Source of the DNA: Nitrospirota bacterium
Lineage (GTDB): Bacteria; Nitrospirota; Nitrospiria; Nitrospirales; Nitrospiraceae
Assembly: GCA_016200355.1 (NCBI GenBank)
Contig: JACQEY010000016.1
Span: 1 to 39,202, forward strand
Reading direction: 5' to 3'
Length of the DNA stretch: 39,202 nucleotides
A program made the translations under genes and the position numbers. Under the pieces are notes generated by a model. It made no database searches. It had not been told where the DNA came from and saw only the letters and a list, made by a program, of their open reading frames with translations. Of the stretch, positions 1 to 33,726 are shown in pieces; position 1 is the first letter of the stretch; each line of letters starts with the position of its first letter.

Positions 1-1355
1 CCTTCACGCCAATGGAGGGTGGACATGCGTTTGCGGTCCGCGTCGAACGGCAGCTCGCCCATCCTGGGCAACGGTGCATGGTGGAGGAGTCCGTGATCCA
101 GTGCGAACTCGACCAGGGCCACTTCGGTCGGATCGCCCGTGATGGTGGGGCGGCCGTCGGTCCGCCGCAGGCGTTTGGCATTGTGGCAGTGGATGATCGC
201 ATCGAAGAGCGGCGCATACTCCTCGGCCTCGATCGCGCTGGTCACGCGTCCGGCGATCACCAGACAGCTTTCCTGCACCTCGACTTCGAGATGGTCCATA
301 TAGAAACGAGCCACGCGCATTCTGTTCTCGGTCAGCGTCCCCGTCTTATCCGTGCAGATGACGGTGGTGCAACCCAAGGTTTCAACGGATGTCAGTTGCT
401 TGATGAGCGCGTGGCGTTTGGCCATGCGCTGGCTGCCCAACGCCAAGGCCAGCGTCACAGTGGGGAGCAGTCCTTCCGGCACGTTCGCCGCGATGATGCC
501 GATCCCGAAGATCGCGCTGATCCAAAAGCCGAGGCCGGTCCATAGCCCGATAGCGAAAAACGAGGCTCCCATGGCCAACGAAATCATGGCGACAATGCGG
601 GTGAGCTTGGCGATCTCTTTCTGTAGCGGGCTGAGGCCTGTCTCCACGCTCGTGGAGAGGCGGGCGATCTTGCCGAATTCCGTCTGCATGCCGGTGGCGA
701 ACACCACTGCACGACCTCTGCCGGAGAGCACGGGGGTGCCGGCGAATACGAGATTAGGAATGTCCAGCAGATGTCCATCGGCCACCGGCTCCGCTGTCCG
801 CCGCTTCGGTTGGGATTCGCCTGTGAGAGAGGAGAGGTCGACACGCATTCCGCTTGCTTCGATGAGCCGGGCGTCGGCTGGGATCTGCTCTCCCTCCTCG
901 ATCAAGAGCACGTCACCCGGCACGATCTCGCTCCGCGACACGTCTTGCGGTTGCTTGCTTCGCAGCACCCATGCCCTGGCAGGGAGGAGGCGATGTAGGG
1001 CGTGCACCGCGCGCTCCGCTTTATATTCCTGAAAGAAGGCAAAGACGGCGTTGATGACGATCACCCCGAGGATCGCCCAGCCGAGCGTGGCCATACCTTC
1101 GCCTGGCTTCATGAATTCTGCCGTGAAAGAAAGGGCGGCGGCGATCCAACGCAACATGGCCAGGAAATGGGTGAACTGGTGGAGGAACCCTCGAATCAAT
1201 GAGGAGTGCCCCGGCTCCTCCAGAACATTGGGGCCATACTTGCTGAGCCTCTGCTGTGCCTCTTCGGGCGACAAGCCGCCTTCCCTGGTTTCCAGGTGTT
1301 TGAGGATTTCAGCAACCGTGAGTTGGTGGAGCGGTAGCTTGTCGAGATCAGGCAC
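1..1355 (-). CDS. P2-type cation-transporting ATPase, N-terminal part (gene runs off the left edge)
   Basis: Integral membrane ion pump of the P-type ATPase superfamily; only the first ~451 residues are in the window. In order I see a cation-ATPase N-terminal region (residues ~5-75), two membrane segments (~65-110), the actuator motif TGES (178-181), a second hydrophobic pair (~253-300) containing PEGLL (293-297), and the phosphorylation motif DKTGT (336-340, Asp336 being the phosphorylated residue). PEGLL followed by a TVT run resembles Na,K-ATPase-type P2 pumps more than heavy-metal P1B pumps, and there is no CPC motif or N-terminal metal-binding domain. The ion (Ca2+, Na+/K+ or other) cannot be decided. 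A GTG start at 1355 overlaps the stop of the upstream USP gene by 8 nt, which implies co-transcription and translational coupling; a TGA lies in frame just upstream. CtpF of the M. tuberculosis DosR regulon is also a P2 ATPase. Confidence 0.9.
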   Translation of the reverse strand, partial: MPDLDKLPLHQLTVAEILKHLETREGGLSPEEAQQRLSKYGPNVLEEPGHSSLIRGFLHQFTHFLAMLRWIAAALSFTAEFMKPGEGMATLGWAILGVIVINAVFAFFQEYKAERAVHALHRLLPARAWVLRSKQPQDVSRSEIVPGDVLLIEEGEQIPADARLIEASGMRVDLSSLTGESQPKRRTAEPVADGHLLDIPNLVFAGTPVLSGRGRAVVFATGMQTEFGKIARLSTSVETGLSPLQKEIAKLTRIVAMISLAMGASFFAIGLWTGLGFWISAIFGIGIIAANVPEGLLPTVTLALALGSQRMAKRHALIKQLTSVETLGCTTVICTDKTGTLTENRMRVARFYMDHLEVEVQESCLVIAGRVTSAIEAEEYAPLFDAIIHCHNAKRLRRTDGRPTITGDPTEVALVEFALDHGLLHHAPLPRMGELPFDADRKRMSTLHWRE

Positions 1356-2253
1356 GCCGGCCTCGCACGATCAGGATGGAACAAGGGGCATGTCTCAGGA
1401 GACTTTCCGAGACGCTGCCGAGATAGAGCCGCTCGCTCTTGGTCAGCTCGCGAGACCCGATCACCAACAGGTCGGCATGATCCGTCTCCACGTGTTTGAC
1501 GATGGTGTCGATGACGTGGCCCATCTGCACGTCTGTGACGGCGGCGTAGCCTTCTTGCAGGAATTCATCCCGCAATGATGTGACCAGTCGCGTGGCGCGT
1601 TCGAGGACCGGTCGTTCCAACTCTGCGACTTGGGCGTTGGACAAGTATCGAACGGCCAAGTCGGTCACCGGTCTTTCGGCCGAGGAGAGGATGGTGGTCG
1701 TGGCGGATTCCGGAAGAATGAAGGATCGAAGAAATCGAGCAGCGGCTCGGGAGTGCTTCGAGTCATCGACCGCGAGGGTCACATGCGTCAGCTGTGGAAG
1801 CGGCTGTTTCACAACGAGGACAGAGCAGGGGGCGATTGACGCGATTTGCCGAGAGATGCTTCCCAACAAGAATCCTCGAATGTCGCTCAATCCACGGGAT
1901 CCGATGAGGATAAGATCGGCCTTCATCCGCACCGCCTGTCGCACGATCGTCCGGACGAAGGGGCCATGGGCTAAGGTGGTGTGAAATTTAGTGCGAGGGC
2001 CGGTCGCGGCCTGTCCGAGGGCAACTCGAGCTGAGCGCTCTGCCTCGCGGAGGAGGATGCCACCGGCCTTCTCCATGGCGGCCAGGGCGCGTTTCTCTGC
2101 CACGGGATTCTTGCCTCTGCCCGCTCGGAGGGCCGACGGATCGACCACATGGAGAAGCGTCACAGCCTCCGGCTCACGGTCGGCGAGCGCTTCGAGTGCT
2201 TGTACCCCCCACTGTGAGCATTCAGACCCATCCACAGTACAAAGAATTCGCAT
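1348..2253 (-). CDS. Universal stress protein, tandem two-domain
   Basis: 301-residue cytoplasmic protein with two consecutive USP (UspA-like) domains, about residues 1-152 and 155-301. Domain 1 has the full nucleotide-binding signature G-2X-G-9X-G-S (G118, G121, G131-S132), so ATP binding is likely. In domain 2 the second glycine is Glu269 (G266-S-R-E269 ... G279-S280), so ATP binding there is doubtful. The start is ATG with a strong ribosome-binding site (GAGGAAGGGAG) about 10 nt upstream. The stop overlaps the GTG start of the P2-type ATPase, so the two form an operon. USPs are stress- or energy-responsive regulators; the partner is unknown. Confidence 0.95.
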   Translation of the reverse strand: MRILCTVDGSECSQWGVQALEALADREPEAVTLLHVVDPSALRAGRGKNPVAEKRALAAMEKAGGILLREAERSARVALGQAATGPRTKFHTTLAHGPFVRTIVRQAVRMKADLILIGSRGLSDIRGFLLGSISRQIASIAPCSVLVVKQPLPQLTHVTLAVDDSKHSRAAARFLRSFILPESATTTILSSAERPVTDLAVRYLSNAQVAELERPVLERATRLVTSLRDEFLQEGYAAVTDVQMGHVIDTIVKHVETDHADLLVIGSRELTKSERLYLGSVSESLLRHAPCSILIVRGRRA

Positions 2254-2606
2254 GACAGACTCCCTTCCTCAATGATGCCAAAACACACGGGATATTCCGG
2301 GTATCAGTTCTGCATTGTATGTGCCTGTGACGCACGGGAATAAGGAAGAAGAGTCAGCACTGTTTCAAGGGGTTATGAAAAGAAACGGTACTCCGGTTCC
2401 TCTGGATGGTGCGGCGTTTTGCAGCAGAGAGGAAAGCACCACTGTGGTGATTAGCGTCAGTCTATCTTGTTCATTTGGTCTGTTTGGTTTGTCTCGTTTG
2501 TTTGGTTGAACGAAACTAACCAGATGAACCAAATCAACCAGATAAACGAAACAAACCAAATTAATGCTCACTCGTCTCGCTTGGCTATTGTTAGAGGAGG
2601 GGATAC
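2254..2606. other. Divergent intergenic region with promoters and a T/G-rich quasi-palindrome
   Basis: This 353-bp gap separates the minus-strand USP/ATPase operon from the plus-strand CBS gene, so it should hold both promoters. The first ~200 bases contain no gene I can support. The last ~90 hold the repeat described separately. I could not assign -35/-10 boxes with confidence. Confidence 0.5.
2473..2561. repeat. T/G-rich word repeat forming a quasi-palindrome (family 2, copy 1)
   Basis: The left half is built from words such as TTTGGT, GTTTGGTTTGTCTCG and TTTGTTTGGTT. The right half carries their complements (AACCAAAT, AACCAGATAAACGAAAC, AAACCAAAT). The two halves can fold into a long imperfect hairpin. 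The same design recurs at 16332-16404 and 35122-35201, always intergenic. It lies about 45 bp upstream of the CBS start codon. Confidence 0.8.
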
Positions 2607-3041
2607 ATGCCGACAAAGAAGAAGGCCAGGACAGGTACAAAGAAAGATTTTGAGGTGATGACGGTCAAGCAGGTCATGCAGAAAATGGTGCAGTCTGCCC
2701 ATCTCAAGACCAAAGGCGACGTCATCGCCTCGCTCCTGATCGAGGGATTCGGGGCCGTGCCGGTGGTGGACGCCAAAGATAAGCTCCTGGGTATTGTCAG
2801 CGAACATGATCTGCTGGCCGCTATGGATGATGGGCACAAGCTTGGTGCTGTCTCCGCCGGCGAAATCATGACGTATAACCCCTATTCGATCCATCCGGAA
2901 GCAATACTCCCGACGCTGGTTCATGTGTTCAGAGCCAGCGATTTGATTCGTGTCCCGGTGGTAGACGCCAAAGACAAGCTCGTGGGCATCATCGCCAGGC
3001 GTGATGTTTTGCGTGCCTATCTTGCAGCCGGGCGTGCATAG
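2607..3041 (+). CDS. CBS-domain pair protein (Hrp1-like)
   Basis: 144-residue cytoplasmic protein made of a basic N-terminus (KKK near residues 4-6) and two CBS domains (~18-75 and ~82-140). The repeated pattern is PVVDAKDKLLGIVSEHDLL in CBS1 and PVVDAKDKLVGIIARRDVL in CBS2. Such pairs bind adenine nucleotides and act as energy sensors; Hrp1 (Rv2626c) of the mycobacterial dormancy regulon has the same two-CBS layout. The start is fixed by AGAGGAGGGG 5 nt before ATG. The stop codon TAG is directly abutted by the ~126-bp palindromic element, and a second CBS-pair gene follows. Confidence 0.93.
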   Translation: MPTKKKARTGTKKDFEVMTVKQVMQKMVQSAHLKTKGDVIASLLIEGFGAVPVVDAKDKLLGIVSEHDLLAAMDDGHKLGAVSAGEIMTYNPYSIHPEAILPTLVHVFRASDLIRVPVVDAKDKLVGIIARRDVLRAYLAAGRA

Positions 3042-3168
3042 CAGGATGCTGAAAAAGTCCGCCAGCTTCGTTCTCGCGATGAAAGCATCCTCAACGTAGC
3101 CCAGAGGCTACGCCTCCGGTGCTTTCATCGGCTGCGGCCTTGCTGGATGGCCTTTTTGAGCATCCTGC
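3041..3168 (+). repeat. ~126-bp terminal-inverted-repeat element, copy A
   Basis: Starts with GCAGGATGCTGAAAAAG and ends with its near complement CTTTTTGAGCATCCTGC. The inner arms GTCCGCCAGC and GCTGGATGGC pair imperfectly next to A5 and T5 runs, which looks like a bidirectional terminator. In this copy further arms (CGATGAAAGCA with TGCTTTCATCG) and a central hairpin (CGTAGCC-cagag-GCTACG region) pair well, so the whole element can form one long hairpin. Its first base is the last base of the CBS gene's TAG. Confidence 0.9.
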
Positions 3169-3201
3169 GGGAAGGCTCAATAGCGGGAAAGAGGAGGTTC
3201 T

Positions 3202-3636
3202 ATGCGACAAACGGAGTTCCTTGCGACGGCCTGCGACCCGAAGACCTTGACGGTGGGGCAATTGATGCAGGATGCGGTCTTTACCTGTGGCTCCAGAACC
3301 GATGCCCTGACTATCAGCCGGCTGATGACCCAGCGAAACTTCGGCAGCCTGCCTGTGGTGGAAGAGGACAGGACCTTGGTTGGCCTTATCAGCGAGTACG
3401 ATCTGCTTCAGGCGATGATCGAGGGGCGGGATCTGCGGAAGGTGATGGCTGTCGAAATGATGAGCACCCACCCGGTGACTGCCACCGAGGACATGAAACT
3501 GGAGGAGGTCGCGAATCTGTTCCAGGATCGCTACATCACGCGGGTGCCGGTGGTTCGGAACGGCAAGCTCGTCGGTATCCTGGCGCGGCGGGATCTGTTG
3601 TTTGGATATACCAAGGCATCGCAGTATTGGTCTTAG
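3202..3636 (+). CDS. CBS-domain pair protein, second copy
   Basis: 144 residues with two CBS domains (~15-75 and ~82-140); diagnostic strings are GSLPVVEEDRTLVGLISEYD and RVPVVRNGKLVGILARRDLL. Same size and architecture as the CBS protein upstream but clearly diverged, so an old duplication rather than a recent one. A strong ribosome-binding site (AAGAGGAGG) precedes the ATG. It probably binds adenine nucleotides and reports cell energy state; no effector domain is attached, so it must act through a partner that I cannot identify. Confidence 0.93.
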   Translation: MRQTEFLATACDPKTLTVGQLMQDAVFTCGSRTDALTISRLMTQRNFGSLPVVEEDRTLVGLISEYDLLQAMIEGRDLRKVMAVEMMSTHPVTATEDMKLEEVANLFQDRYITRVPVVRNGKLVGILARRDLLFGYTKASQYWS

Positions 3637-3641
3637 AGTCG

Positions 3642-3657
3642 CGTGAAACGTGAAACG
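3642..3657 (+). repeat. CGTGAAACG word repeat (family 3)
   Basis: Two tandem copies of the word CGTGAAA (CGTGAAACGTGAAACG) directly after the stop of the second CBS gene. Related words recur at 4186-4201, 26462-26547, 31041-31060 and 31753-31827, often with an inverted partner. Confidence 0.6.
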
Positions 3658-3846
3658 AGCAGGGGCGCGATACGTGCGAGGCAAGGCGAAGAAAATCGCA
3701 AGACGGCGATCGGTGAACTTCCCATTTGCCTGGATGCAAAGCCGACGTGACCACATAGCTCCAAGGAAGGGAAGCGGGACTACGATTGCCGGCGAGCCAA
3801 GACGGTTCTCCCGTCGAGCATCGGAGGATAACGAGCAGGGGTGCTG

Positions 3847-6501: not shown

Positions 6502-7770
6502 ATGGCCGTGGACGACTGGAAAACCCGCAAAGGATTTCTTCGCTTCACAAGAGAAGAGGAAGTCGCCCTCACGGTTCTTCAGCCCATCATGGTCCAGCAC
6601 GTCGACGAGCTGGTCGGGGCGTTCTACCGCCATCTCCTGTCCTTTCCCGAAACGAGACGATTTCTCACCGACGAATTAATCAGCACCCGACTGCTGGAGG
6701 CCCAGAAGCGGTACCTGCTCTCTCTGGTGACGGGTCCCTATGACCGAGCCTATGAGGACGGGCGGCGGCAGATCGGACGAGTTCATGCGCGTCTGGGGTT
6801 GACCCCCGAGTGGTACTTTGGGGCGTACGCCCTCTACTTATCGCTCCTGCAACCGCTGATCTTTGAGAAGTTTCGCAACCAGCCCGACAAATATGTAGCT
6901 GTCCGCATCGCCTTGACCAAGGTTATTTTCTTGGACATGCAATTGGCCCTCGAAGCATACATCGAGAAATCCTCGGAAGGCCAGGACTTTGCCGTCAAGC
7001 AGTTGGCGAGCTTCAATCATGAACTGGAAAAAGGACTGGTTCAGAATCGACACGTTCTGAGTGAAACGCAGCAGCAGCTCCGTCTCACGGAGCGAGTAGC
7101 AGAATTGGGGACGCTCGCCGCGAGTATGGCCCATGAGATCGGCACGCCGATGAATGTAATTTTGGGACGAGCCGAACAGTTACTGCAGCGCACAGACGAT
7201 GAGACGATGAAGAAAGGGCTGACCATCATCACCGCGCAAGTTGAGCGCGTGACGAGGTTGATGAATCAGTTGCTCGCCTGTGCCCGGCGAGGTTCACCTA
7301 ACTTCAGACCCGTGGATCTGCGGGACGTCGTAAAGAATTGTCTGGATGCCGTGGAAGAACGGCTGAGCCAGCACTGCGTTCAGGTGGTCTCCGAGCAGGA
7401 GGAGGAGTTACCGCACATCCACGGAGATAGCGATCTCATGATGCAGGTGTTGCTGAATCTCGTGCTCAATGCCGTGCAGGCCATGCCCGAGAGTGGCACC
7501 TTGCGTGTGGCTGCCGCCCGTGACGGAGAGCACCACATCAGGCTGACTGTCGCGGATACCGGATGCGGGATTCCGCCCGATGTCCTCCCGAAAATCTTTG
7601 AGCCCTTTGTCACGACCAAAGAACGCGGGAAAGGGACCGGCCTGGGCCTCACAGTGGTCCTCGGCATCGTTCAGGAACACGGCGGGTCCATTACCGTTGA
7701 CAGCACGCCCGGTCAGGGCACCACGTTCACGCTCCTCTTGCCAAGAGTCGCGCCTTCCTTCCAGCAATAA
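6502..7770 (+). CDS. Globin-coupled sensor histidine kinase
   Basis: 422-residue soluble kinase. Residues ~15-155 form a protoglobin/globin-sensor domain; His95 in GRVHARLGL is the expected haem-ligating proximal histidine, so O2, NO or CO or redox sensing is likely. A coiled linker (~160-200) leads to a HisKA domain with phosphoacceptor His211 in [15 protein letters not shown]. The ATPase domain has the N-box (LVLNAVQ, N323), G1 (DTGCGIP, 352-358), F (FEPF) and G2 (GTGLGL, 378-383). No membrane segment is seen. A receiver-only response regulator follows 174 bp downstream. A decayed relative lies at 27146-28000. Fairly sure of the architecture; the ligand is inferred. Confidence 0.93.
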
Positions 7771-11537: not shown

Positions 11538-11660
11538 CAGGATGCTGAAAAAGACCGCCAGCGGCGTTCTCACTTCGCTTAGAGGCTCAACGTACCGAAG
11601 CGCACGCTTCGCCTCTTCGCTTGCTGCGGCCTTGCTGGACGGCCTTTTTGATCATCCTGC
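11538..11660 (+). repeat. ~126-bp terminal-inverted-repeat element, copy B
   Basis: Ends CAGGATGCTGAAAAAG and CTTTTTGATCATCCTGC. The central hairpin differs from the other copies (CGAAGCG-ca-CGCTTCG), yet a perfect stem is kept. It lies between pncB and pncA on the minus strand in reversed orientation and is the only full copy not abutting or close to a stop codon on its own strand. Confidence 0.85.
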
Positions 11661-11721
11661 GGGAGTGTTTTCCTCTTCTCTGAAACGTATAGGCCTTCGA
11701 AGTTCAGGTAAGCCAAAATGG

Positions 11722-15767: not shown

Positions 15768-15772
15768 TATTC

Positions 15773-16318: not shown

Positions 16319-16331
16319 GCTGCCTCCGTTC

Positions 16332-17793: not shown

Positions 17794-17796
17794 AGT

Positions 17797-23557: not shown

Positions 23558-23710
23558 TCCTGGAGGGAGACATTACTAGCGGCGATCTCCCTGCTTGTCT
23601 GATATTGAAAAAAGGCCTAGACTCTGGCTCCCGGTCAGCCCTTCAGCCGCGGGCGCGCGAAGCGCGACTTCCCGGTGCCGCGGTTTTTGTCACGCCGAGG
23701 AGAAGATTCT

Positions 23711-25735: not shown

Positions 25736-26400
25736 AAAAGCCGCGCGTCCTCATGGCCGATGACCACTCGCTGATCCTCGCCGGCCTGAGGAAGCTGGTA
25801 GAGGGTGAGTGCGAGGTGGTGGGCACGGTGGAAGACGGGCGGGCGCTGCTTGATGCGGCGCAGAAGCTGCGGCCGGATCTGATTCTCCTGGACATCTCGA
25901 TGCCGCTCTTGAACGGTCTCGAAGCGGCCAGGCAACTCCGCACTCTGGTGCCGGGAAGCAAACTCATCTTCCTCACTATGCATGCCAGTCCGACCTATGC
26001 AACCGAGGCCTTCCAGGCCGGGGCCTGCGGGTATCTCCTCAAGCGCTCCGCGGCTTCGGAACTCAGCCTGGCGATCCAGTCCGTCCTCCAAGGCCAGCAC
26101 TATCTCACGCCGTCGCTCACGAAAGATGTGCTGGAATCGGTCCTCAAGCCATCCACCGGCGAGCGAGGCAAGGCGGTGGCCACAGCGCTCACCGCGCGTC
26201 AGCGCGAAGTCTTGCAGCTCGTCGCCGAAGGCCGCGGCACGAAGGCGATTGCCACGATCCTCAACGTGTCGGTGAAAACGGTGGAGTTTCATAAGTCCCG
26301 CATCATGCAGCAGCTGGGCATTCATACCACTGCCGACTTGACCAAGTATGCGATCACGCACGGCATCGCAGGCCTTGAACAAGCAGGTGTGCCACGATAG
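25732..26400 (+). CDS. NarL/FixJ-family response regulator
   Basis: 222 residues. Receiver domain ~1-125 with the acidic pocket D10-D11, phosphorylated D54 in LILLDISMP and Lys in GYLLKRS. LuxR-type HTH ~155-215 (LTARQREVLQLVAEG, then KTVEFHKSRIMQQL). Its ATG overlaps the kinase TGA, so the pair is co-translated. It is expected to bind an inverted-repeat operator as a dimer; the palindromic motif at 22468, 23542 and 26572 is a candidate. Analogous in class to DosR/DevR. Confidence 0.95.
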   Translation: MKKPRVLMADDHSLILAGLRKLVEGECEVVGTVEDGRALLDAAQKLRPDLILLDISMPLLNGLEAARQLRTLVPGSKLIFLTMHASPTYATEAFQAGACGYLLKRSAASELSLAIQSVLQGQHYLTPSLTKDVLESVLKPSTGERGKAVATALTARQREVLQLVAEGRGTKAIATILNVSVKTVEFHKSRIMQQLGIHTTADLTKYAITHGIAGLEQAGVPR

Positions 26401-26461: not shown

Positions 26462-26547
26462 ATCGTGAAGCGTCGCAGAGCGTGAGACGTGAAGCGTAGC
26501 TCGATTCCAGACTAGAACGGTTCACCCTGTACGTTTCACGTCTCTCC
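26462..26547. repeat. CGTGAAGCG word repeat with inverted arm (family 3)
   Basis: Words CGTGAAGCGT and GAGACGTGAAGCGTA (26484-26498) face TACGTTTCACGTCTC (26530-26544), matching at 14 of 15 positions as an inverted repeat. It lies between the NarL-type regulator and the receiver-only gene, in a 255-bp gap without other genes. Confidence 0.75.
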
Positions 26548-26655: not shown

Positions 26656-27105
26656 ATGAAGAAACCACGGATACTTGTGGCTGACGACCACCCAGTAATA
26701 CTGAAGGCGTTATGTGGTTTATTAGAAAATGGAGTGGGTGAGGTGGTAGGCGCAGTGACGGATGGTCAAGCACTCGTGGAGGCGGCACAACGGCTTGAGC
26801 CTGACATTATTCTTGCGGATATCTCGATGCCCAGGCTGAACGGCCTCGAGGCCACTCGTGCCCTACAGCACTCTGTCCCGCAGAGCAAGGTCATCATTCT
26901 AACGAGCCATTATGAGCCAGCCTACGTGGCCTTGGCTTTCAAATCGGGAGCCCGCGGCTATCTTCTCAAAAGAACTTCCCTCCATGCAGAACTGTCTCAA
27001 GCTGTTTTTCACGTGCTCGCAGGTGATCGTTATATCGGGCATGGGGTGAACGAAGAGCAGGCGTTTGCCGATGAGGGCGAGTCCCTGATTCGCTATCGCC
27101 TCTGA
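26656..27105 (+). CDS. Receiver-only relative of the NarL-type regulator (HTH lost)
   Basis: 149 residues, starting MKKPRILVADDH like the full regulator 900 bp upstream. The receiver is intact (D10-D11, D55 in IILADISMP, Lys in GYLLKRT), but the chain stops after GESLIRYRL where the other protein continues into its HTH. It could act as a phosphate sink or as a dimerisation inhibitor. GAGGAG lies ~10 nt before the ATG. It is followed 40 bp later by a kinase-like gene that lacks catalytic parts. Confidence 0.88.
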   Translation: MKKPRILVADDHPVILKALCGLLENGVGEVVGAVTDGQALVEAAQRLEPDIILADISMPRLNGLEATRALQHSVPQSKVIILTSHYEPAYVALAFKSGARGYLLKRTSLHAELSQAVFHVLAGDRYIGHGVNEEQAFADEGESLIRYRL

Positions 27106-27145
27106 GGGGTTGAGTAGCGAAGAAGCTGGAGAACAGGAGGTTGTG

Positions 27146-28000
27146 ATGGAAGAACGAGATGGCCGGCAGGATGACAGGATGTTGCTCACGCAGGAAGAGG
27201 AAGCCTCGCTCACTTTGTTGGAACCCCTTTTCGCCCGCCATCGAGACCTCATCTTTGAAATTTTGCCCCGTTATATCAGGAGCGAACCAGACGGAGCCTC
27301 GCTGCTGTCGGACGACCTTGCGTCCGCCCGCTTGACGCGCGTGCAGCAAGAACATTCACTTGCCTTGTCGAATGGGGCAAAAGAGGGATCTGTCGGCAGA
27401 GAGGGCGGAGAGGCGGCAGACTCTCGCGATCCCTTCGGGCTTGGCGTAGGCGGGCACCTTCGGACCATCGCCCATTTTCTGACTTCCATTCAGCCGCTGG
27501 CATTCGACGCCTTTGGAGCAAGGCCGTACTTGTATCACACGGTTTGGAACGCCTTGTTGAAAGTGGTCTTCCGCGACATTGATCTGGCGATGCGCGAATC
27601 CCTCACACAGCGCGATGAGCTGGTGAAGGCCGCCGTGCAGGAGGTGAACGAGACGAGGAGGGCTTTGGACCTCTTACTGAGCAAACAGGCGCTCGATGAA
27701 GGGCAGCGCAAGACCGAGCATCGGACAGTCGTGAATCTCCTTACGACATGGCTTACGAAGACATCGGAATTGGCCCAAGAGATGGGGACTCCGCTCAATG
27801 TGATCCTCGGGCAGGCCGAGTCCCTCCTGGAACAGACAGAGGATCCTCCCGCACAAGCCGCGCTCCAGAGCATCGTCAGACAGGTCGAGCGACTGATTCC
27901 TCTGCGGCAGCAGTTATGTGCTCTCGATCACGGGTTCAACAGTAAGCCTCCCGCACCCGATCGCGAGGCAATGGCGGAAGGACCTCGAGCCGATTGTTGA
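27146..28000 (+). CDS. Degenerate globin-coupled kinase (pseudokinase)
   Basis: 284 residues, paralogous to the globin kinase at 6502-7770. Shared landmarks are the globin start (LTQEEEASLTLLEPL against [15 protein letters not shown]), SIQPL, and the H-box GTPLNVILGQAESLL against [15 protein letters not shown]. The phosphoacceptor His is Gln211 (ELAQEMGTP), no His aligns with the haem ligand (that area is a Gly/Asp-rich insert), and the ATPase domain is absent. So it should neither bind haem in the usual way nor phosphorylate. AGGAGG 5 nt before ATG 27146 fixes the start. It may be an adaptor or a decaying gene. Confidence 0.85.
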   Translation: MEERDGRQDDRMLLTQEEEASLTLLEPLFARHRDLIFEILPRYIRSEPDGASLLSDDLASARLTRVQQEHSLALSNGAKEGSVGREGGEAADSRDPFGLGVGGHLRTIAHFLTSIQPLAFDAFGARPYLYHTVWNALLKVVFRDIDLAMRESLTQRDELVKAAVQEVNETRRALDLLLSKQALDEGQRKTEHRTVVNLLTTWLTKTSELAQEMGTPLNVILGQAESLLEQTEDPPAQAALQSIVRQVERLIPLRQQLCALDHGFNSKPPAPDREAMAEGPRADC

Positions 28001-28068
28001 AAACGCCGCTGGTGCCACAGACCGTGGCGCGCGAGACCGGCGCAAAAAGGCGCGATCCGAAGTTCTGA

Positions 28069-28093
28069 GTTCGAAGTTCAGAAAACTTCGAAC
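28069..28093. repeat. Perfect 10-bp hairpin downstream of the pseudokinase
   Basis: GTTCGAAGTT and AACTTCGAAC pair around CAGAA, preceded by the related word GAAGTTCTGAG. There is no U-run on the plus strand, so terminator function is uncertain. It lies between convergent genes. Confidence 0.65.
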
Positions 28094-28133
28094 CCCCACT
28101 CGTCTCGCCCCTCTCGCCTTTCCTGCAGTCCCC

Positions 28134-28911
28134 TCAGTGGAACACCAGTACCGGGCATGGCATCTTGTGTAACACTTCATGAGACACACTGCCGAGTACG
28201 AGGCGGGTGATGCCCTGTCGGCCCCTGGTACCCATCAGAATCAGATCGGATTGCAGAGTGGTCGCTTGTTGCAGAATCGTGGTAGCTGGTGCCCCGGCCA
28301 CGGCGACTCCGTGCGCCTGATAACCTAGGGCGCGTAGACGTTCTGCCAGACCCTCGATGTAGGCGGCTCGTTTCTCCAGTATCTCTGCGGCGGCTGCAGC
28401 AGCCTCTGAACCGACCGGTAATGGCGGCTCTGCCAAAGGCAATACGGTCAGCAGCGTTAACTCGACCGCCTCGTGAAACGGCTTCAGTTGTAGAAAGCGA
28501 ATCGCGGCCTCCGCGTCGGATGGAGCGTGGATCGACAGCAAGATCTGTTTCATGGCCTTGACCGGGCCATGTACAATCAATGCGGCGCAGTGGGCCATGG
28601 TGATAATACGGTGTGACACACTGCCGAGCAGCCACTCCTTGAGAGGACTAACACCCCGTGCTCCCATCACGATGAGATCGGCTTTCTGCTGCTCGGCCAT
28701 CGACACGATCAGTGCGGCCACCATGCACACCACCACATAGACCAACACGACGAAATCCGGCCAGGTCTTGTCCACGGCGTGGAACCACCGGTAGTACATG
28801 GCCAGCCCGATGGCGGCCGCGGCGAACCAGATCACCAGCGTCAGCCCGACGAACTTCCACCGTTTGACGGCGACGAACTGACGATCCGTCCACCGCGAGT
28901 AATGTGTTCAT
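28134..28911 (-). pseudogene. Chimeric universal stress protein gene (5' half replaced)
   Basis: ATG 28911 with AAGGAGAG upstream begins MNTLLAVDGS like the intact USP gene next door (MKTLLAVDGS). After codon 10 the sequence (about 28881-28713) becomes unrelated: in a shifted frame it reads two hydrophobic helices (IWFAAAAIGLAMYYRWF, then FVVLVYVVVCMVAALI), a membrane-protein fragment. From VSMAEQQKADLIVMGARG the reading returns to USP sequence and continues through a full second USP domain, with GTRGRQGITRLVLGSVS. The 5' junction is out of frame, so the proper start yields no USP; an internal GTG (28835) could give a membrane-anchored USP. Both junctions contain GATCG, shared with the USP sequence. 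Confidence 0.8.
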
Positions 28912-29095
28912 TGAAGACTCTCCTTTTGTTTGCGCTCCTGTGAGGGGCAGGATGACAGTGTTGTCAAAACAGTCCGTCGGCATCTATGGACTGTGGCGCG
29001 TGAAGTGCGGGAATCAGCTGGGTTCTCTGGTTTATTTGGCGGAACCAGATCAACTGGTTCCGCGCGTCTCGCCTGCCTCGCTTTTCCCGCCTGCT

Positions 29096-29959
29096 TCATG
29101 AGTGAAACGCCAGTACCGGGCATGGCATCTGGTGTAACACGGCATGAGACACGCTGCCGAGCACAAAGCGGGTGATTCCCCGCCGGCCCCTTGTGCCCAT
29201 CAGAATCAGATCCGATCGCAGTGTGGTGGCTTCTTGCAGGATCACGGTAGCCGGTGTCCCGACCAGGGCGACTCCATGTGCTTGATAACCTATGACGCGT
29301 AGACGTTCTGCCACACTCTCGATGTAATCGGTTTGCTTCTCCAGCATCTCGGTGGCGGCGGCACCGGCGGCGGCACCGCTCGGCCATGGAGGCTCTGTCC
29401 AAGGCAAGACCGTCATCAGTGTCAACTCAACCGCCTCGTGAAACGGTTTGAGTTGGAGAAAACGAATCGCGGCTTCCGCGTCGGTTGGACCTTCGAGCGG
29501 CAGCAAGATCTGTTTCATGGCCTTGATCGGTCCGTTCACGATCAATGTGGCGCAAGGGGCCAGGGTGAGGATGCGGTGCGATACACTGCCGAGCAGCCGC
29601 TCCTTGATGGGGCCAAGACCCCGTGCTCCCATCACGATGAGATCGATTTTCTGTTCCTTGGCCATCGACACGATCACTTCTGCCGGAGATCCCATTTGAA
29701 GGTGTTTCGTCGTGGGGCCTGCGTGCAGCGGAAGAAGGGACTGAACCCGATTGAGCAGCCGCTCTCCGTCTTCCTTCATGCTCTGCTCAAGGGTCTTATA
29801 AATCTCCTCCGCTGCTTCCGGTATCATCGTGGGGTACGCTGGCCGCGGGACGTTCACCGCGTGAAGCAGGGTCAGCTGTTCTGCCCGGGCCAGGTATTTC
29901 ATGACGTGAACGGCCTCATAGGAATTATCCGATCCGTCAACCGCGAGTAATGTTTTCAT
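29096..29959 (-). CDS. Universal stress protein, tandem two-domain
   Basis: 287 residues with two USP domains (~1-147 and ~150-287). ATP-binding signatures GARGLGPIKERLLGSVS and GTRGRRGITRFVLGSVS are complete in both. It is the intact paralogue of the chimeric gene downstream; their second halves and the flanking DNA are closely similar, so they arose by tandem duplication. Its ATG overlaps the TGA of the DLH hydrolase gene (ATGA), placing it in that operon. Confidence 0.95.
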   Translation of the reverse strand: MKTLLAVDGSDNSYEAVHVMKYLARAEQLTLLHAVNVPRPAYPTMIPEAAEEIYKTLEQSMKEDGERLLNRVQSLLPLHAGPTTKHLQMGSPAEVIVSMAKEQKIDLIVMGARGLGPIKERLLGSVSHRILTLAPCATLIVNGPIKAMKQILLPLEGPTDAEAAIRFLQLKPFHEAVELTLMTVLPWTEPPWPSGAAAGAAATEMLEKQTDYIESVAERLRVIGYQAHGVALVGTPATVILQEATTLRSDLILMGTRGRRGITRFVLGSVSHAVLHQMPCPVLAFHS

Positions 29960-30663
29960 CGCAGACGCTCCTTTGTTTGCGCACCTGTGCTCTCGTACTT
30001 GGCATGATGAAAGTGTTGCTGAAACCAGGCGAGAGCATGTTCCGCAACCTGTTCAAGTGTGCCGGGCTCTTCGAATAGATGCGTCGCGCCTGGCACGATC
30101 ACGAGCCGTTTGGGGCAGGAGAGCAGTCGGTAGGCTGCTCGATTCATCTCGATGACCGGCTCATCATCTCCTCCGATAATCAGCAAAGTCGGCGCGGTGA
30201 CCGACGGCAGATAGGCTTCGGCCAGATCAGGTCTACCGCCCCGTGATACGACGGCCTGAATCGACGAAGGATCGCGGGCTGCCGCCTGCAGGGCCGCGCC
30301 AGCTCCGGTACTGGCGCCGAAATAGCCGATGTCCAGGCCCTTCGTCCGATCATCCTGTTTGAGCCAGGCTGTGGCCAACAAAACTCGATCTGCCAATAGA
30401 TCGATGTCGAAGACCTTGCGGCGGTCTTCGGCTTCATCCGGAGTCAGTAGATCGATCAGGAGCGTAGCCACCCTTCCATGCTGGAGATAGCGGGAGACAA
30501 AATTGTTGCGCGGGCTGAACCGCCCGCTGCCGCTTCCGTGGGCGAAAACCACCATTCCCAGCGCCTGTGCCGGAAGTCCGAGGATTCCTTCAAGGGTAAG
30601 ATCCCCCCATGTGAGTCTTACTGCTTTTTCATTCATTGCCGGCCATCCGGTTGCATCCTTCAT
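29956..30663 (-). CDS. Dienelactone-hydrolase-family alpha/beta hydrolase
   Basis: 235 residues. VVFAHGSGSGRFSPRN (~38-53) is the typical loop of this subgroup. The nucleophile is Ser118 in GASTGAGAA, the acid Asp166/167 in GGDDEPV, and the base His195 in GATHLFEEPG. Relatives are often fused to a phosphoribosyltransferase, as I recall for the DosR-regulon protein Rv0571c; here the hydrolase stands alone. It is co-translated with the downstream USP. The start is ATG 30663 (GGAAG 7 nt upstream) or ATG 30636. Confidence 0.9.
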   Translation of the reverse strand: MKDATGWPAMNEKAVRLTWGDLTLEGILGLPAQALGMVVFAHGSGSGRFSPRNNFVSRYLQHGRVATLLIDLLTPDEAEDRRKVFDIDLLADRVLLATAWLKQDDRTKGLDIGYFGASTGAGAALQAAARDPSSIQAVVSRGGRPDLAEAYLPSVTAPTLLIIGGDDEPVIEMNRAAYRLLSCPKRLVIVPGATHLFEEPGTLEQVAEHALAWFQQHFHHAKYESTGAQTKERLR

Positions 30664-30811: not shown

Positions 30812-30907
30812 TCATTGGCACTCCACGGGGCAGAAAAACAGAAAGTAGAGCCCCACCGCGACCCCGAGCAGAACAGCACCTGCGAACAGCCACTGCGTTC
30901 TTGTCAT
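30812..30907 (-). CDS. 31-residue single-pass membrane peptide
   Basis: Starts MTRTQW, then a hydrophobic run of ~20 residues (LFAGAVLLGVAVGLYFLFF), ending CPVECQ with two Cys. A positively charged N-terminus before the helix and a Cys-containing tail suggest a small inner-membrane protein with the tail outside. GGGAAACG upstream is a weak ribosome-binding site. No homologue can be named; the clear helix argues for a real gene. Confidence 0.5.
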   Translation of the reverse strand: MTRTQWLFAGAVLLGVAVGLYFLFFCPVECQ

Positions 30908-31271
30908 AGATTCGTTTCCCGTTTCGCACTACAGAGAAACTCAGCAAGTCCAATGCCGTTGTTCTTACAGCTACGTGAGGTGTGAGGGGTGACTCGTAAG
31001 GTGAGGAGCGAAAGGCGGTTGGCTTCATTTTTATTACGTCGTACGCTTCACGGTTCACGTCTTCTGTAGCCTTCCGCTACAGAGGGAAAAAGCAAACTGT
31101 AGCAGGACACCCCCACTCACAATCCTAAGAGTCGATGGTGTATGGCTTTTGGTCTAACAAGAGAGACAAAGTCTTTGTTTCCGCTGTGCTATTAGCCGTC
31201 GCTATTGACTCTTGGCTCGGTGGCACCGGCCTTGCTGATAACGGGAATGAGTCAATCCTTTGGGGGGTCGC
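30908..31271. other. Intergenic region before the single-domain USP
   Basis: 364 bp with no gene I can support. It contains CGTACGCTTCACGGTTCACG (family-3 words) at ~31040-31059 and a perfect 7-bp hairpin CTGTAGC-cttcc-GCTACAG at 31064-31082. A frame at 31135-31353 looks signal-peptide-like for ~35 codons, then runs into the USP gene in another frame; I do not call it. Confidence 0.45.
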
Positions 31272-31757
31272 ATGGCGGAACCGTTCTGTACCAGGATGCT
31301 TGTGCCGGTGGATTTTTCTGTTTGCTCAGAAGAAGCTTTCCGCGTTGCCCTAACCCTTGCCCGGACCTTTCAGGCTGAACTGCTGTTATTGCATGTGATT
31401 GACACAAGTGCCCTTGCGGCCTTCAACCGCCTTGGGTTGTTGGCTGTGCCGTCCGACGCACAAGCCCAGAAGCGGCGCCTGCGGCACCACGCCCGTTTGA
31501 ATACGCGTCGGTTGCTCGATTCGGAGACGGTCAAGGGCGTGAAGATCACACGGGTGCTGGCGGAAGGAGTGCCCTTTGTAGAGATCGCGAAGATAGTCCG
31601 GATTGAAAAAGTCAATCTGGTGGTGTTGGGCAGTTATGGGGGGCGATCGGAGAGTGTCGACAAAATATTTTTCGGCAGTACGGCAGAACGGGTGGTGCGG
31701 ACCGCGGGTTGTCCAGTGTTGACCGTTCCGCTGCCACCCAGGCCGAATCGTTCGTGA
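31272..31757 (+). CDS. Universal stress protein, single domain
   Basis: 161 residues with one USP domain; the nucleotide-binding motif GSYGGRSESVDKIFFGSTAE keeps G-2X-G-9X-G-S. The start is ATG 31272, with a G-run 4 nt upstream; the frame is open to 31260. The stop TGA lies within the family-3 inverted repeat. The next plus-strand gene encodes an exported cupredoxin. Confidence 0.92.
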   Translation: MAEPFCTRMLVPVDFSVCSEEAFRVALTLARTFQAELLLLHVIDTSALAAFNRLGLLAVPSDAQAQKRRLRHHARLNTRRLLDSETVKGVKITRVLAEGVPFVEIAKIVRIEKVNLVVLGSYGGRSESVDKIFFGSTAERVVRTAGCPVLTVPLPPRPNRS

Positions 31758-31827
31758 AAGGTGAAACGTAAAACGTGAAAGATATTGGGGGAAGAGCATT
31801 CGGCAATCCTGCGTTTCACCTTTCACG
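31753..31827. repeat. Perfect 16-bp inverted repeat of GTGAAA words (family 3)
   Basis: CGTGAAAGGTGAAACG (31753-31768) and CGTTTCACCTTTCACG (31812-31827) are exact complements around a 43-bp loop that holds further GTGAAA words. The left arm includes the USP stop codon. A degenerate right end of the ~126-bp element (GATTTTTTAGCATTCTG) follows at ~31904. Confidence 0.9.
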
Positions 31828-31935
31828 TCTTACGGTTCGACAAGCTCACCGTCCCGAGCCAAGCCGAGGGACCTTTTACGGCTCTTGAGCGCGAAGTGGG
31901 CAGATTTTTTAGCATTCTGAGAGAGGGAGGAATCT

Positions 31936-32364
31936 ATGAAATGTCAGAAAGCGCAGCAGTGGGGATGGGTGCTTGTGCTTGCCGTCACATTCGGGTTCTG
32001 GTGGGAGGCGGCAGAGCCGATTTTCGCTCAGTCGGAGCAAGTCGTCGAGGTCACGATCAAGGATTTCAAGTTCGTGACGAAGCAGGGGGTGCTCCGCCTC
32101 GGATTTCCTTCAGTGATTAAGGTCAGGAACGAGGATGCTGAACGGCACGACTTTGGCTCGACCATGTTTGAGGGCCTTCCGACTCAGGTCGAGAAGGACG
32201 GGGTGATCGTCTATGGCCGAGGGGTGGGCGGAGTATTTCTCGATCCCAAACGGGATGCGGTTATTCGGTTCAACATGTCGCGGCCTGGCCGGCATGAGTT
32301 CCGGTGCTCGATCCATCCGAACATGACCGGTGAGTTGCTGTTGCTTAGCGTGGAGGCGGTATAA
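31936..32364 (+). CDS. Exported cupredoxin-like copper protein
   Basis: 142 residues. A hydrophobic signal peptide (~10-31, cleavage near IFA/QS) sends it to the periplasm. A beta-rich domain carries the type 1 copper ligand set: His71 in ERHDFG and Cys124, His127, Met130 in FRCSIHPNM. It is likely a small electron carrier or copper-binding protein. AGGAGG precedes the ATG. It is followed by repeat copy E and a USP gene. Confidence 0.9.
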   Translation: MKCQKAQQWGWVLVLAVTFGFWWEAAEPIFAQSEQVVEVTIKDFKFVTKQGVLRLGFPSVIKVRNEDAERHDFGSTMFEGLPTQVEKDGVIVYGRGVGGVFLDPKRDAVIRFNMSRPGRHEFRCSIHPNMTGELLLLSVEAV

Positions 32365-32371
32365 AAAATAG

Positions 32372-32496
32372 GCAGGATGCTGAAAAAGTCCGCTAGCGTC
32401 GTTCTCGCATCGTTCAGACCCTCAACGTACCGCAAGGGTACGCCTCGGGTCTTCGCTCGCTGCGGCCTTGCTGGACGGCCTTTTTGAGCATCCTGC
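32372..32496 (+). repeat. ~126-bp terminal-inverted-repeat element, copy E
   Basis: GCAGGATGCTGAAAAAG to CTTTTTGAGCATCCTGC. The central hairpin is CGTACC-gcaag-GGTACG, a third loop variant with the stem kept. The left end starts 7 bp after the cupredoxin stop codon. Confidence 0.92.
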
Positions 32497-32530
32497 TAGG
32501 GGCGAGAAATATGGTGAGGAGAGGACATTC

Positions 32531-33487
32531 GTGATCAAGCGAATTTTGTTGGCTACGGATTTTTCACAGTGGGCTCGGCGGGCGGAGGACTATGCCTGCG
32601 CGCTGGCCTGTTCGTGGAGGGCTTCCTTGACCGTGCTCAGCGTCTCGGAATTTATGCCGGGACTCAATCCCGATTACCCCGTCAATCAGCAATACTTGGC
32701 TGATCTGCTCAAAACCGCATCGTTGCAGTTAGTCGGCCTCAAAGGCCGTGCGGAGCGGCGAGGCATTGCGGTCATGACCAGGATGGCTACGGGGATTCCA
32801 AGCGAAGAGGTGATTGCCGCGGCGCGGGCTGAGGATTCAGACCTCATCGTCGTAGGGACCAGGGGCAAGACCGGCCTTGCGCACGTTTTGTTAGGCAGTA
32901 CTGCCGAGCGGGTCATTCGCGGCGCCCCCTGCCCAGTGTTGGCGGTGCGAACGGAACTGGCGGACAACGAGGACGAGTGCGTCTTGTCGAGACCTGTCAC
33001 ACTGGAGCGCATCCTTGTACCGGTCGACTTTTCCGATTGCTCCTGCCATGCCTTTGAGTATGCAGTCGAGGTGGCGTGGCAGGCGAAGGCGTCTGTGATG
33101 CTACTGCATGTGCTGGAGCCGGTGTCGTATGGTTTGGACTTTGACCTCGGCCATATCAGGAGCCGCGAAGATGTGCGCGAGAGTTGGACAAAACGGCTGG
33201 AGGAGTTGGCGTCTTCCCGCCAGCATCCTGATGTCGCGGTGGACGTTCGGCTGCGGGGAGGCTTTCCGGCCGATTCAATCTTAGATGCTGCCCAGACCTT
33301 ACCCTGCGATCTCATCGTGATGGGCACGCACGGGCGCCGTGGGATTTCGCACACCATCTCCGGCAGCGTAGCGGAAGCCGTCCTGCGAAAAGCTCGCTGC
33401 CCTGTCATCGCGGTGCGTAGCCAAAAGTTTGGACCAGGCCATCGTCGGGTGATTCCGACAGAAATGTCTCCCGTAACGCAGATTTAA
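32531..33487 (+). CDS. Universal stress protein, tandem two-domain
   Basis: 318 residues with USP domains at ~1-145 and ~160-310; motifs GTRGKTGLAHVLLGSTAE and GTHGRRGISHTISGSVAE are both complete. The start is GTG 32531 (MIKRILLATDFS), with GAGGAGAGG upstream; the frame continues upstream into repeat copy E, which is not coding. It probably binds ATP in both domains. It belongs to the UspA-type double proteins found with CBS and Hsp20 genes in dormancy gene sets. A DUF2934 gene follows 17 bp later. Confidence 0.94.
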   Translation: MIKRILLATDFSQWARRAEDYACALACSWRASLTVLSVSEFMPGLNPDYPVNQQYLADLLKTASLQLVGLKGRAERRGIAVMTRMATGIPSEEVIAAARAEDSDLIVVGTRGKTGLAHVLLGSTAERVIRGAPCPVLAVRTELADNEDECVLSRPVTLERILVPVDFSDCSCHAFEYAVEVAWQAKASVMLLHVLEPVSYGLDFDLGHIRSREDVRESWTKRLEELASSRQHPDVAVDVRLRGGFPADSILDAAQTLPCDLIVMGTHGRRGISHTISGSVAEAVLRKARCPVIAVRSQKFGPGHRRVIPTEMSPVTQI

Positions 33488-33504
33488 CCAAGGAGTGGGT
33501 GATC

Positions 33505-33726
33505 ATGAGTGCAACAAAACTCACAGTGAAGAAGAAACCCTCGATGCGTTCGCCCTTGGCGGCATCGCCACAATCTATCGAGCTGCCGAATGGCATGCGG
33601 GAACGGATTTCGAAGAAGGCGTTCGAATTATGGCAAGATCGAGGGTATCGAGACGGACACGACTTCGAGGACTGGCTCGACGCCGAGGCCATCGTGATGG
33701 AAGAAATTCATGAAGCTCGCGAGTGA
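33505..33726 (+). CDS. DUF2934 protein, second copy
   Basis: 73 residues from ATG 33505 (AAGGAG 9 nt upstream); an in-frame GTG at 33499 is also possible. The core MRERISKKAFELWQDRGYRD, then FEDWLDAEAIV, matches the first DUF2934 protein at 21259-21504. Function unknown. It overlaps the next gene by 17 nt, implying coupled translation. Confidence 0.87.
   Translation: MSATKLTVKKKPSMRSPLAASPQSIELPNGMRERISKKAFELWQDRGYRDGHDFEDWLDAEAIVMEEIHEARE

Follow-up and report, generated by a model that had tools for sequence, protein, structure and literature searches.

Introduction

The DosR (DevR) regulon of Mycobacterium tuberculosis unites a CtpF-like ATPase, universal stress proteins (USPs), a dual-CBS protein (Hrp1), Hsp20, PncB, an APH plus P-loop protein and an HPF-like factor. 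Genes of the same effector classes—as judged against this gene list, which is taken from general knowledge—lie together on a 39,202-nucleotide contig of a draft Nitrospirota genome (GenBank assembly GCA_016200355.1, contig JACQEY010000016.1), which was analysed over its whole length and is called the window here. A preliminary description of this DNA had proposed an independent dormancy or hypoxia island that matches the DosR regulon by class. The present analysis points to a conserved Nitrospira island whose main operons carry predicted sigma-54-type promoters and a tandem enhancer, and which probably answers to an NtrC-family activator.

Several systems with which this locus can be compared have been described; they are cited here for the passages that bear on the comparison. 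In Myxococcus xanthus, NmpRSTU consists of a globin kinase (NmpU), a receiver-only protein (NmpT), a hybrid kinase (NmpS) and an NtrC-like regulator (NmpR); it works with sigma-54 and paired sites mostly 14-15 bp apart, CBS, USP and P-type ATPase genes are among its targets, one of which was induced 6.5-fold by hypoxia (PMC11841059). The lxa locus of Burkholderia cenocepacia—a low-oxygen-activated cluster encoding six USPs, a heat-shock protein, a cytochrome c and a phosphofructokinase—was likened to DosR by its own authors (PMC6127331), and the core regulon of Streptomyces OsdKR comprises dormancy genes clustered round their two-component pair (PMC5069765). At about 5.6 µM oxygen, Nitrospira marina raises four UspA proteins together with their flanking operons, as well as a formate dehydrogenase of low overall abundance (PMC8115632), and USP and CBS proteins are raised in microoxic Bradyrhizobium (PMC6515984). 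A survey of sigma-54 regulons found USP (COG0589) enriched in Planctomycetia and formate dehydrogenases as targets in other classes (PMC12316311).

Predicted sigma-54-type promoters

Four promoter regions (UspA-ATPase, HPF-LonB, DLH-UspB and Usp1-formate dehydrogenase) carry predicted, conserved -24/-12 elements of the sigma-54 type, three of them preceded by the tandem elements treated in the next section:

2311-2326, minus strand: UspA-ATPase sigma-54-like -24/-12 element AGGCACATACAATGCA, GG-N10-GC; similarly placed in 9 of the 10 regions compared
2409-2460, minus strand: UspA tandem enhancer-like pair in 33-bp register (2442-2460, 2409-2427); 2+3 mismatches in the window
16419-16434, minus strand: HPF-LonB sigma-54-type -24/-12 element CGGCACATCGCTTGCT; present before HPF in 7 of 8 sequences, with a fraction of 0.000 among shuffles
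16528-16579, minus strand: HPF degenerate tandem enhancer-like pair in 33-bp register (16561-16579, 16528-16546); 3+4 mismatches in the window
30943-30958, minus strand: divergent DLH-side sigma-54-like element CGGCATTGGACTTGCT; relaxed pattern found in the window and 22 of 22 relatives
31064-31103, plus strand: predicted Usp1 enhancer, palindrome CTGTAGCCTTCCGCTACAG (31064-31082), N14 and half-site CTGTAGC (31097-31103); shuffles expect 0.00
31221-31236, plus strand: predicted Usp1 sigma-54 promoter TGGCACCGGCCTTGCT; 22 of 23 genomes, shuffles expect 0.06 per window

The Usp1 element was obtained from an alignment of 300 bp of upstream sequence from 23 genomes, in which conserved blocks were sought; it has the textbook form TGGCAC-N5-TTGCT and occurs once in the window. 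Upstream sets were restricted to matches of at least 55% identity starting no more than 40 residues from the N-terminus, and the matrix for the sigma-54 scan was built on frequencies from general knowledge. The DLH-side element, of the type CGGCAY-N5-CTTGCT, precedes a 31-residue membrane peptide, the DLH-family hydrolase and UspB. It lies 70-118 bp from the enhancer in 20 of 23 genomes and 280 bp in one, the remaining two being without an exact palindrome; as a control, the relaxed pattern by which it is recognized matches 37 of 1320 random 750-mers from the same stretches. Matrix matches were found upstream of DLH in 12 of 20 sequences and upstream of UspB in 4 of 22, fifteen of them being the DLH-side element and one (in genome G033) another site, while the region upstream of LonB gave 2 of 4 and thirteen other genes, represented by at least five sequences each, gave 0-2 matches each. 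The gene for sigma-54, rpoN, is present in the genome.

Stretches bearing USP genes in four genomes of other families hold 13 TGGCAY-N5-YTGCW sites against 0.55 expected from mononucleotide shuffles. According to N-terminal reading and homology matches of the genes that follow, six sites precede USP or Hsp20 genes, three receivers and two a transporter-like frame, with two before none of these. Since the stretches were chosen for their USPs, these sites are no more than suggestive of a sigma-54 control type older than the genus.

Tandem enhancer-like elements

The palindrome CTGTNGC-N5-GCNACAG is found upstream of the Usp1 promoter in 21 of 23 genomes, and once in the window. Its distance to the promoter is 136-139 bp in all 21, and in 20 of them CTGTAGC stands 14 bp behind it. 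This enhancer region is common to Usp1 and the divergent DLH promoter. At UspA, a pair at 33 bp with 2-4 mismatches per copy accompanies the -24/-12 element in 9 of 9 genomes that have the latter; at HPF, such a pair occurs in four of the five genomes that could be judged (the window, G011, G036 and G008), the fifth (G032) having it at 34 bp and two more having too short an HPF upstream region for the register to be judged.

A scan of 1.40 Mb of fetched stretches over spacings of 20-60 bp yielded 30 pairs at 33 bp and no more than three at any other spacing, whereas 20 permuted palindromes (18 distinct) yielded no pair at 33 bp. These 30 pairs amount to 29 distinct ones, as two G004 stretches overlap, and 21 are orthologous Usp1 sites and thus not independent. 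Separate promoters among them are those of UspA (G008, G011, G026) and of the C24-type regulator locus described below (G000, G004); further pairs are single sites on contig C138 of G000, in G024 and in G001. Exact palindromes number five in the genome, against none for a control pattern. On C138 (G000:C138:14001-27000), two exact palindromes and one tandem pair lie near genes for a cytochrome c'-like protein, a globin-GGDEF protein, a multicopper oxidase and CopB, which are possible further members of the regulon.

Candidate regulators

The window itself encodes two globin-domain proteins and a two-component pair:

6502-7770, plus strand: PgbHK, protoglobin-HisKA-HATPase sensor kinase (Pfam Protoglobin, 6.5e-41)
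7945-8343, plus strand: single-domain receiver after PgbHK (Pfam Response_reg, 7.5e-19)
23675-26400, plus strand: PAS-HisKA_3 kinase (FixL-like second PAS) and NarL-type (REC-GerE) regulator (Pfam, PDB matches)
26656-27105, plus strand: receiver without output domain (Pfam)
27110-28000, plus strand: Pgb2, globin-DHp protein (Pfam, alignment with PgbHK)

A candidate activator is found at a locus on contig C24 (the C24 locus), which comprises an NtrC-type response regulator of 463 residues—REC-AAA-FIS by reading, with the AAA domain recognized by Pfam—a PAS-HisKA kinase, a receiver and a PAS-type activator with a Sigma54_activat domain. An exact palindrome sits after the regulator/kinase pair and before the receiver and the PAS-type activator, and in no fewer than 15 of the 23 same-genus genomes that bear the enhancer it follows the end of the C24-type kinase match at a distance of 62-188 bp. 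The two palindrome-less genomes among the 25 same-genus genomes searched (G015, G020) are also without a close kinase match, the best reaching 39-42% among the matches listed. Among the matches listed, too, PgbHK has its closest paralogue within the genome in the C24 kinase: 53 of 74 residues of the DHp domain are identical, and the adjoining receivers are 44% identical. The specificity of histidine kinases is set largely by the DHp domain, and this likeness therefore makes cross-talk plausible, in which PgbHK and the C24 kinase would feed the same regulator.

The globin part of PgbHK matches that of AfGcHK (5ohe, 4.4e-15), and by sequence the kinase has the haem histidine of this type: both the aligned F-helix histidine and the phospho-acceptor histidine are kept in 5/5 sequences. 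The named full-length relatives, 85-89% identical, are the Nitrospira metagenome-assembled genomes (MAGs) RCB (Rifle clade B), palsa_1310 and RCA (Rifle clade A) and an NC_groundwater Nitrospirae MAG; a receiver lies downstream in all four (77-95% identity), and island genes adjoin PgbHK in the window, RCA and NC_groundwater_890. Because of this relationship, and because ammonia monooxygenase (AMO) fragments stand at two contig ends of the genome, the source is most likely a comammox (ammonia-oxidising) Nitrospira.

Pgb2 is a globin-DHp relative of PgbHK with 30-33% identity. In all six orthologues that were aligned (a set without the G022 copy, which is broken into two frames), the aligned proximal haem histidine (VHARLGL in PgbHK) is lost, the phospho-acceptor histidine is replaced by glutamine (AQEMGTP versus AHEIGTP) and the ATPase domain is missing, which places the protein outside the AfGcHK type, while the ExxT residues that follow, a phosphatase motif, are kept. 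Pairwise ratios of non-synonymous to synonymous substitution rates (dN/dS) are 0.28-0.38 for Pgb2 (five copies, 10 pairs) and 0.18-0.43 for PgbHK (6 pairs), so that Pgb2 is under selection, somewhat loosely. It could act as an ATP-independent phosphatase or as a docking protein for receivers; in G003, receiver and Pgb2 are fused in one frame of 467 residues (L114:7008-8408). A structure prediction for Pgb2 from six sequences was unusable (mean predicted local distance difference test score, pLDDT, 47.9).

The best PDB match of the NarL-type regulator is VraR (3e-32), DevR following at rank 12 (8.5e-20). Its kinase has PAS domains and no GAF domain by Pfam, and the match to DevS is confined to the ATPase domain (6e-4). 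Of 12 aligned frames, 10 retain the H-box histidine of HisKA_3, and one of those that do not is a fragment. The second PAS domain finds its best match in the haem PAS of FixL (1.9e-17) with the ligand histidine aligned, the FixL arginine being out of register by reading; domain and histidine are kept in two orthologues, and in the others the domain is absent, replaced or unreadable. A haem-PAS role of this kinase is a possibility. The DosR box (20 bp, consensus from general knowledge) has no match in the window at up to three mismatches, and the half-consensus gives 19 matches against 25.8 expected. One-mismatch matches to an FNR-type box number three (one intergenic) against 0.91 expected, a count reached by 5 of 100 shuffles. 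No usable site came out of these three scans.

Clustering and conservation of the island

The window is the entire contig C207, that is, 1.33% of a draft genome of 2,944,264 bases. Within it fall 9 of the 18 USP-domain matches of the genome, corresponding to 5 of 11 open frames if a broken one is counted. Five USP frames compare with 0.15 expected by length (P=1.8e-7, a value that treats genes as independent and to which tandem duplication contributes), and the physical clustering claimed in the preliminary description is thus real. Conserved co-localization, a check set in advance, was likewise found: the island recurs in Nitrospira relatives with the same order and strand, so that a want of conserved clustering no longer speaks against it.

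Stretches from 27 relatives entered the island comparison, matches that overlapped a better match by more than 40% being dropped; those of G001, G003 and G005 were fetched additionally for the globin and enhancer questions. Gene counts refer to 19 same-genus genomes selected by the Usp1/UspT pair; the threshold is 50% identity, and a gene lost to a contig end or stretch limit counts as a miss. Usp1 and UspT are therefore present in 19/19 by construction. UspB, the cupredoxin and the protein encoded at 33710 are also found in 19/19, DLH in 17, the NuoE-like protein in 16 and the NuoF-like protein in 15, followed by the APH and P-loop kinases (12 each), the NarL-type regulator (7), the ATPase (6) and LonB (2). 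Hsp20 and PncB, two of the DosR-like items, are found in 0/19 and are outside the conserved core. The cultured N. japonica NJ1 (G032) has part of the core (the cupredoxin, UspT, the protein encoded at 33710, APH/P-loop and HPF), together with an exact enhancer and a sigma-54 site, and two full-length UspB-like copies are present in G013, G022 and G031. Among the matches listed, USP number is bimodal across 32 same-genus genomes, and at least 12 USP matches occur in 11 of the 12 that have the AMO family versus 11 of the 20 that lack it (Mann-Whitney P 0.011, relatedness ignored). A large USP set therefore seems to be accessory but common among ammonia oxidisers.

Gene content of the window

All gene classes named in the preliminary description are present by Pfam or NCBIfam. 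This includes the four intact USP genes and the broken one, the "two CBS pairs", which are two dual-CBS proteins, and, by Pfam, the HPF-type factor, the Lon-like protease and the protoglobin kinase. Pgb2, the receivers at 7945-8343 and 26656-27105, an isochorismatase-type gene and the formate dehydrogenase set had been missed; as the Usp1 run continues into the latter, the gene set extends beyond position 33,726, where the described part had ended. Apart from the regulators, the genes are:

3-1355, minus strand: C-terminal part of a P2-type cation ATPase, truncated at the contig edge and overlapping UspA (NCBIfam P-type ATPase families, best ATPase-IIC 3.6e-81)
1348-2253, minus strand: UspA, tandem-domain USP (two Usp-domain matches; orthologues in 7/19 fetched same-genus stretches)
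2607-3041 and 3202-3636, plus strand: two dual-CBS proteins (Pfam CBS, 6.2e-22 and 1.9e-28)
10186-11520, minus strand: nicotinate phosphoribosyltransferase (PncB; NAD salvage; NCBIfam NF006696, 9.7e-194)
11722-12312, minus strand: isochorismatase/nicotinamidase-type protein (NAD salvage; Pfam Isochorismatase, 2.5e-29)
13341-15767, minus strand: LonB/LonC-type protease (Pfam AAA_32, LonB LID, LonC helical, Lon_C)
15773-16318, minus strand: ribosome hibernation factor HPF fused to a cold-shock domain (Pfam S30AE and CSD)
16687-18425, plus strand: APH-fold kinase, then adjacent APS-kinase-like P-loop protein (Pfam APH, APS_kinase)
20660-21172, minus strand: Hsp20 (Pfam HSP20, 9.7e-25)
28134-28983, minus strand: broken USP copy (Usp-domain match)
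29096-29959, minus strand: UspB, intact USP (Usp-domain match)
29956-30663, minus strand: DLH-family hydrolase (Pfam DLH, 4.4e-6)
30812-30907, minus strand: 31-residue membrane peptide, first frame of the DLH-UspB unit
31260-33487, plus strand: Usp1 (31260-31757), cupredoxin-like protein and tandem USP UspT (32468-33487) (Pfam)
33505-35083, plus strand: DUF2934 peptide (33505-33720) and conserved protein (33710-35083)
35243-39202, plus strand: NuoE-like protein, NuoF-like protein and molybdopterin subunit (cut by the contig end), with a Metal_resist protein between (Pfam)

By its parts, the NuoE-like/NuoF-like/molybdopterin set is a predicted NAD-type formate dehydrogenase. In G026, the formate dehydrogenase genes are followed by those for a formate/nitrite transporter and a phosphofructokinase, and two more USPs lie about 6-7 kb past the NuoF-like gene. 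The 457-residue protein encoded at 33710-35083 belongs to the conserved core and has no Pfam or NCBIfam match. The conserved 31-residue peptide at 30812-30907 reads MTRTQWL...FFCPVECQ; with a crude pattern, similar peptides were found in 14 of the 22 relatives. Other small proteins are an FmdB-like zinc ribbon and two DUF2934 peptides (12962-13156, 21262-21531 and 33505-33720). Scanning the window for tRNA genes and against Rfam at the gathering threshold gave no match.

Two kinds of repeats occupy the intergenic gaps. An imperfect palindromic repeat of 110-150 bp (CAGGATGCTGAAAAAGTCCGCCAGC ... GCGGCCTTGCTGGACGGCCTTTTTGAGCATCCTG), which by eye resembles repetitive extragenic palindromes or miniature inverted-repeat transposable elements, recurs whole or in part, and many gaps hold heptamer-like words (TTTGGTT, CGTGAAA, GGCTGAA, GTCATTGGTCA, GTTCGAA) in what appear by eye to be short arrays, either tandem or inverted. 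Their approximate positions are:

3042-3201, 11540-11690, 12840-12960, 13225-13340, 18426-18750, 32370-32510 and 35084-35100: copies of the palindromic repeat CAGGATGCTGAAAAAGTCCGCCAGC/GCGGCCTTGCTGGACGGCCTTTTTGAGCATCCTG
2454-2560, 3637-3665, 16330-16400, 17797-17825, 26470-26540, 28060-28100, 31758-31830, 35110-35215 and 35740-35850: heptamer-like arrays

Interpretation and rival explanations

The locus is probably a conserved Nitrospira stress and energy-limitation island of sigma-54 operons, with an NtrC-family activator, a tandem enhancer and an oxygen-linked input. Its main operons would be transcribed by sigma-54 RNA polymerase, with one NtrC-family enhancer-binding protein bound to tandem CTGTNGC-N5-GCNACAG sites 33 bp apart. 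Targets would be the P2 ATPase with a USP, HPF with the Lon-type protease, the hydrolase with a USP, and the USPs with the cupredoxin and the formate dehydrogenase. PgbHK and its receiver, the paralogous C24 PAS kinase, or both would control either the C24 NtrC-type regulator or the neighbouring PAS-type activator, and falling oxygen (or a change in nitric oxide (NO) or redox state) would turn the operons on together, so that growth slows, ribosomes are set aside and formate supplies NADH. Gene content, conservation, the sigma-54-type elements, the tandem enhancers, the enhancer beside the regulator locus and the kinase paralogy are read from the sequences; the identity of the activator, the input from PgbHK, the oxygen signal and co-induction are what the model would add to them. 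Of the dormancy or hypoxia island in the preliminary description, the conserved island of stress and low-oxygen type stands and control of the DosR type does not, and we infer that oxygen is the signal, in agreement with the low-oxygen proteome of N. marina (PMC8115632).

A number of observations weigh against this interpretation. No conserved sigma-54 element was found upstream of CBS1 (0/9), NuoE (0/19) or CytC (0/12), and upstream of APH one is present in only 2 of 14 sequences. The UspA and DLH elements depart from the consensus, and strict sigma-54 sites number one in the window and seven in the genome, against one for a control pattern. The enhancer at HPF is degenerate (3+4 mismatches), and single sites with two or three mismatches are not rare, the best site having two in 87 and three in 342 of 5000 random 175-mers. 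At C24, no clear sigma-54 site was found in the promoter, and the NtrC-type protein reads GAFTDA where the PAS-type activator reads GAFTGA; the latter may therefore be the true activator. Palindromes occur in G006 with no close kinase match among the matches listed, and five genomes of other families (G038, G047, G048, G050, G052) have a kinase at 50-56% identity and no exact palindrome. Among the matches listed, only two relatives out of 60 have a full-length PgbHK (G013, that is RCB, and G031, palsa_1310), and in these it lies on a short contig apart from the island, so that in most genomes examined the island exists without it. Finally, the NarL pair and the receiver-Pgb2 pair are given no role.

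The rarity of PgbHK, set beside an enhancer and an island that are widespread, favours a sigma-54 island whose signal is not oxygen, in which the C24 PAS kinase and NtrC-type regulator would answer starvation, redox state or nitrite/NO and PgbHK would be a lineage-specific addition; the two further palindromes near the cytochrome c'-like and globin-GGDEF genes on C138 point the same way. We regard this as unlikely, though far from negligible, since USP clusters of N. marina rise at low oxygen (PMC8115632) and the analogous Nmp circuit is induced by hypoxia (PMC11841059) in the passages cited. That the PAS-HisKA_3/NarL pair is instead the master regulator, as in DosR-like control, is suggested by its position inside the island and by its FixL-like PAS with the aligned ligand histidine, and yet appears improbable: the NarL-type gene is found in 7/19 stretches, compared with 22/23 for the Usp1 sigma-54 site, most orthologues have the FixL-like domain missing, replaced or unreadable, no DosR box was found in the window at up to three mismatches, and no conserved NarL-type block was recognized in a block search that left out the G032, G033, G035 and L-locus rows. 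An assembly of generic stress genes by drift or transfer, with no common control, would account for the repeats between genes and for variable cargo such as PncB, Hsp20 and AcylT; it is very improbable in view of a core order conserved over genera and of promoter and enhancer elements common to four promoter regions.

A more far-reaching proposal, which we consider possible but somewhat doubtful, is that Nitrospira, comammox members included, evolved a DosR-equivalent low-oxygen survival regulon from sigma-54, tandem enhancers and input from a haem-globin kinase in place of a NarL-type regulator. The fossil Pgb2 would be maintained in it by purifying selection, either as a phosphatase independent of ATP or as a docking brake for receivers. 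The comammox bacteria belong to Nitrospira, a major group of nitrite oxidisers, and such a regulon would bear on how these organisms survive the loss of oxygen. The four predicted sigma-54 promoter regions and their common enhancer constitute a testable regulon. If borne out, it would mean that the DosR problem was solved a second time, independently, with effectors of similar classes, and it would tie the low-oxygen proteome of Nitrospira to a concrete cis-element, while Pgb2, a dead globin-kinase paralogue, would be a case of a conserved pseudo-sensor.

Comparison with known systems

With its regulator closest to VraR and not to DevR, a PAS rather than a GAF-haem kinase and no DosR box in the window, the island was rejected as a member of the DosR regulon, which has the DevR/DevS pair, the DosR box and another promoter type. 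Likeness by class, as the preliminary description had put it, was borne out: effector classes are shared and regulators differ. In a comparison limited to DosR members in the PDB, with matches at class level, Rv2626c ranks fifth for the second dual-CBS protein and Rv2623 ranks third, neither being best. OsdKR relies on an actinobacterial DevR orthologue and DevR-type sites, of which the island has none (PMC5069765), and the lxa locus, compared by description only, is likewise a clustered USP locus with different cargo (PMC6127331). N. marina offers low-oxygen UspA-linked operons like those of the island within the same genus, the likeness being one of description between unmatched loci; a regulatory role was proposed there for the UspA proteins, and sigma-54 is unmentioned in the passages concerned (PMC8115632). 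The passages of the sigma-54 regulon survey contain no such island or tandem enhancer, and 'Nitrospir' is absent from its main text (PMC12316311). In literature on Nitrospira and comammox bacteria concerning USP, hypoxia, sigma-54, protoglobin or NmpR, no account of the circuit was found in titles, beginnings of abstracts and passages (PMC8115632, PMC5767232, PMC12516955), nor were the terms sought found in what was covered of PMC9714041.

The island resembles the NmpRSTU low-oxygen circuit more closely than it does DosR. Common to both, as far as the cited passages go, are a globin-type kinase, a receiver-only protein, a second HisKA kinase, an NtrC-like regulator, sigma-54 promoters and paired enhancers, the latter two being predicted sites here, at the USP/ATPase operons and not at CBS1. 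However, the receiver-only protein has one domain here and two in NmpT, and the C24 kinase is a PAS-HisKA-HATPase protein without a receiver, whereas NmpS is a hybrid REC-HisKA kinase. The enhancers also differ, being CTGTNGC-N5-GCNACAG in the island and GCGCA-N5-TGCGC in NmpRSTU (PMC11841059), and the predicted targets lie, unlike those of NmpRSTU, in one island that includes HPF, LonB and formate dehydrogenase. The island system may therefore be one that works like NmpRSTU with different parts. What is new is a predicted sigma-54 regulon that spans a conserved island of Nitrospira and has a tandem enhancer of precise register; the analogy with DosR is one of functional class and not of control.

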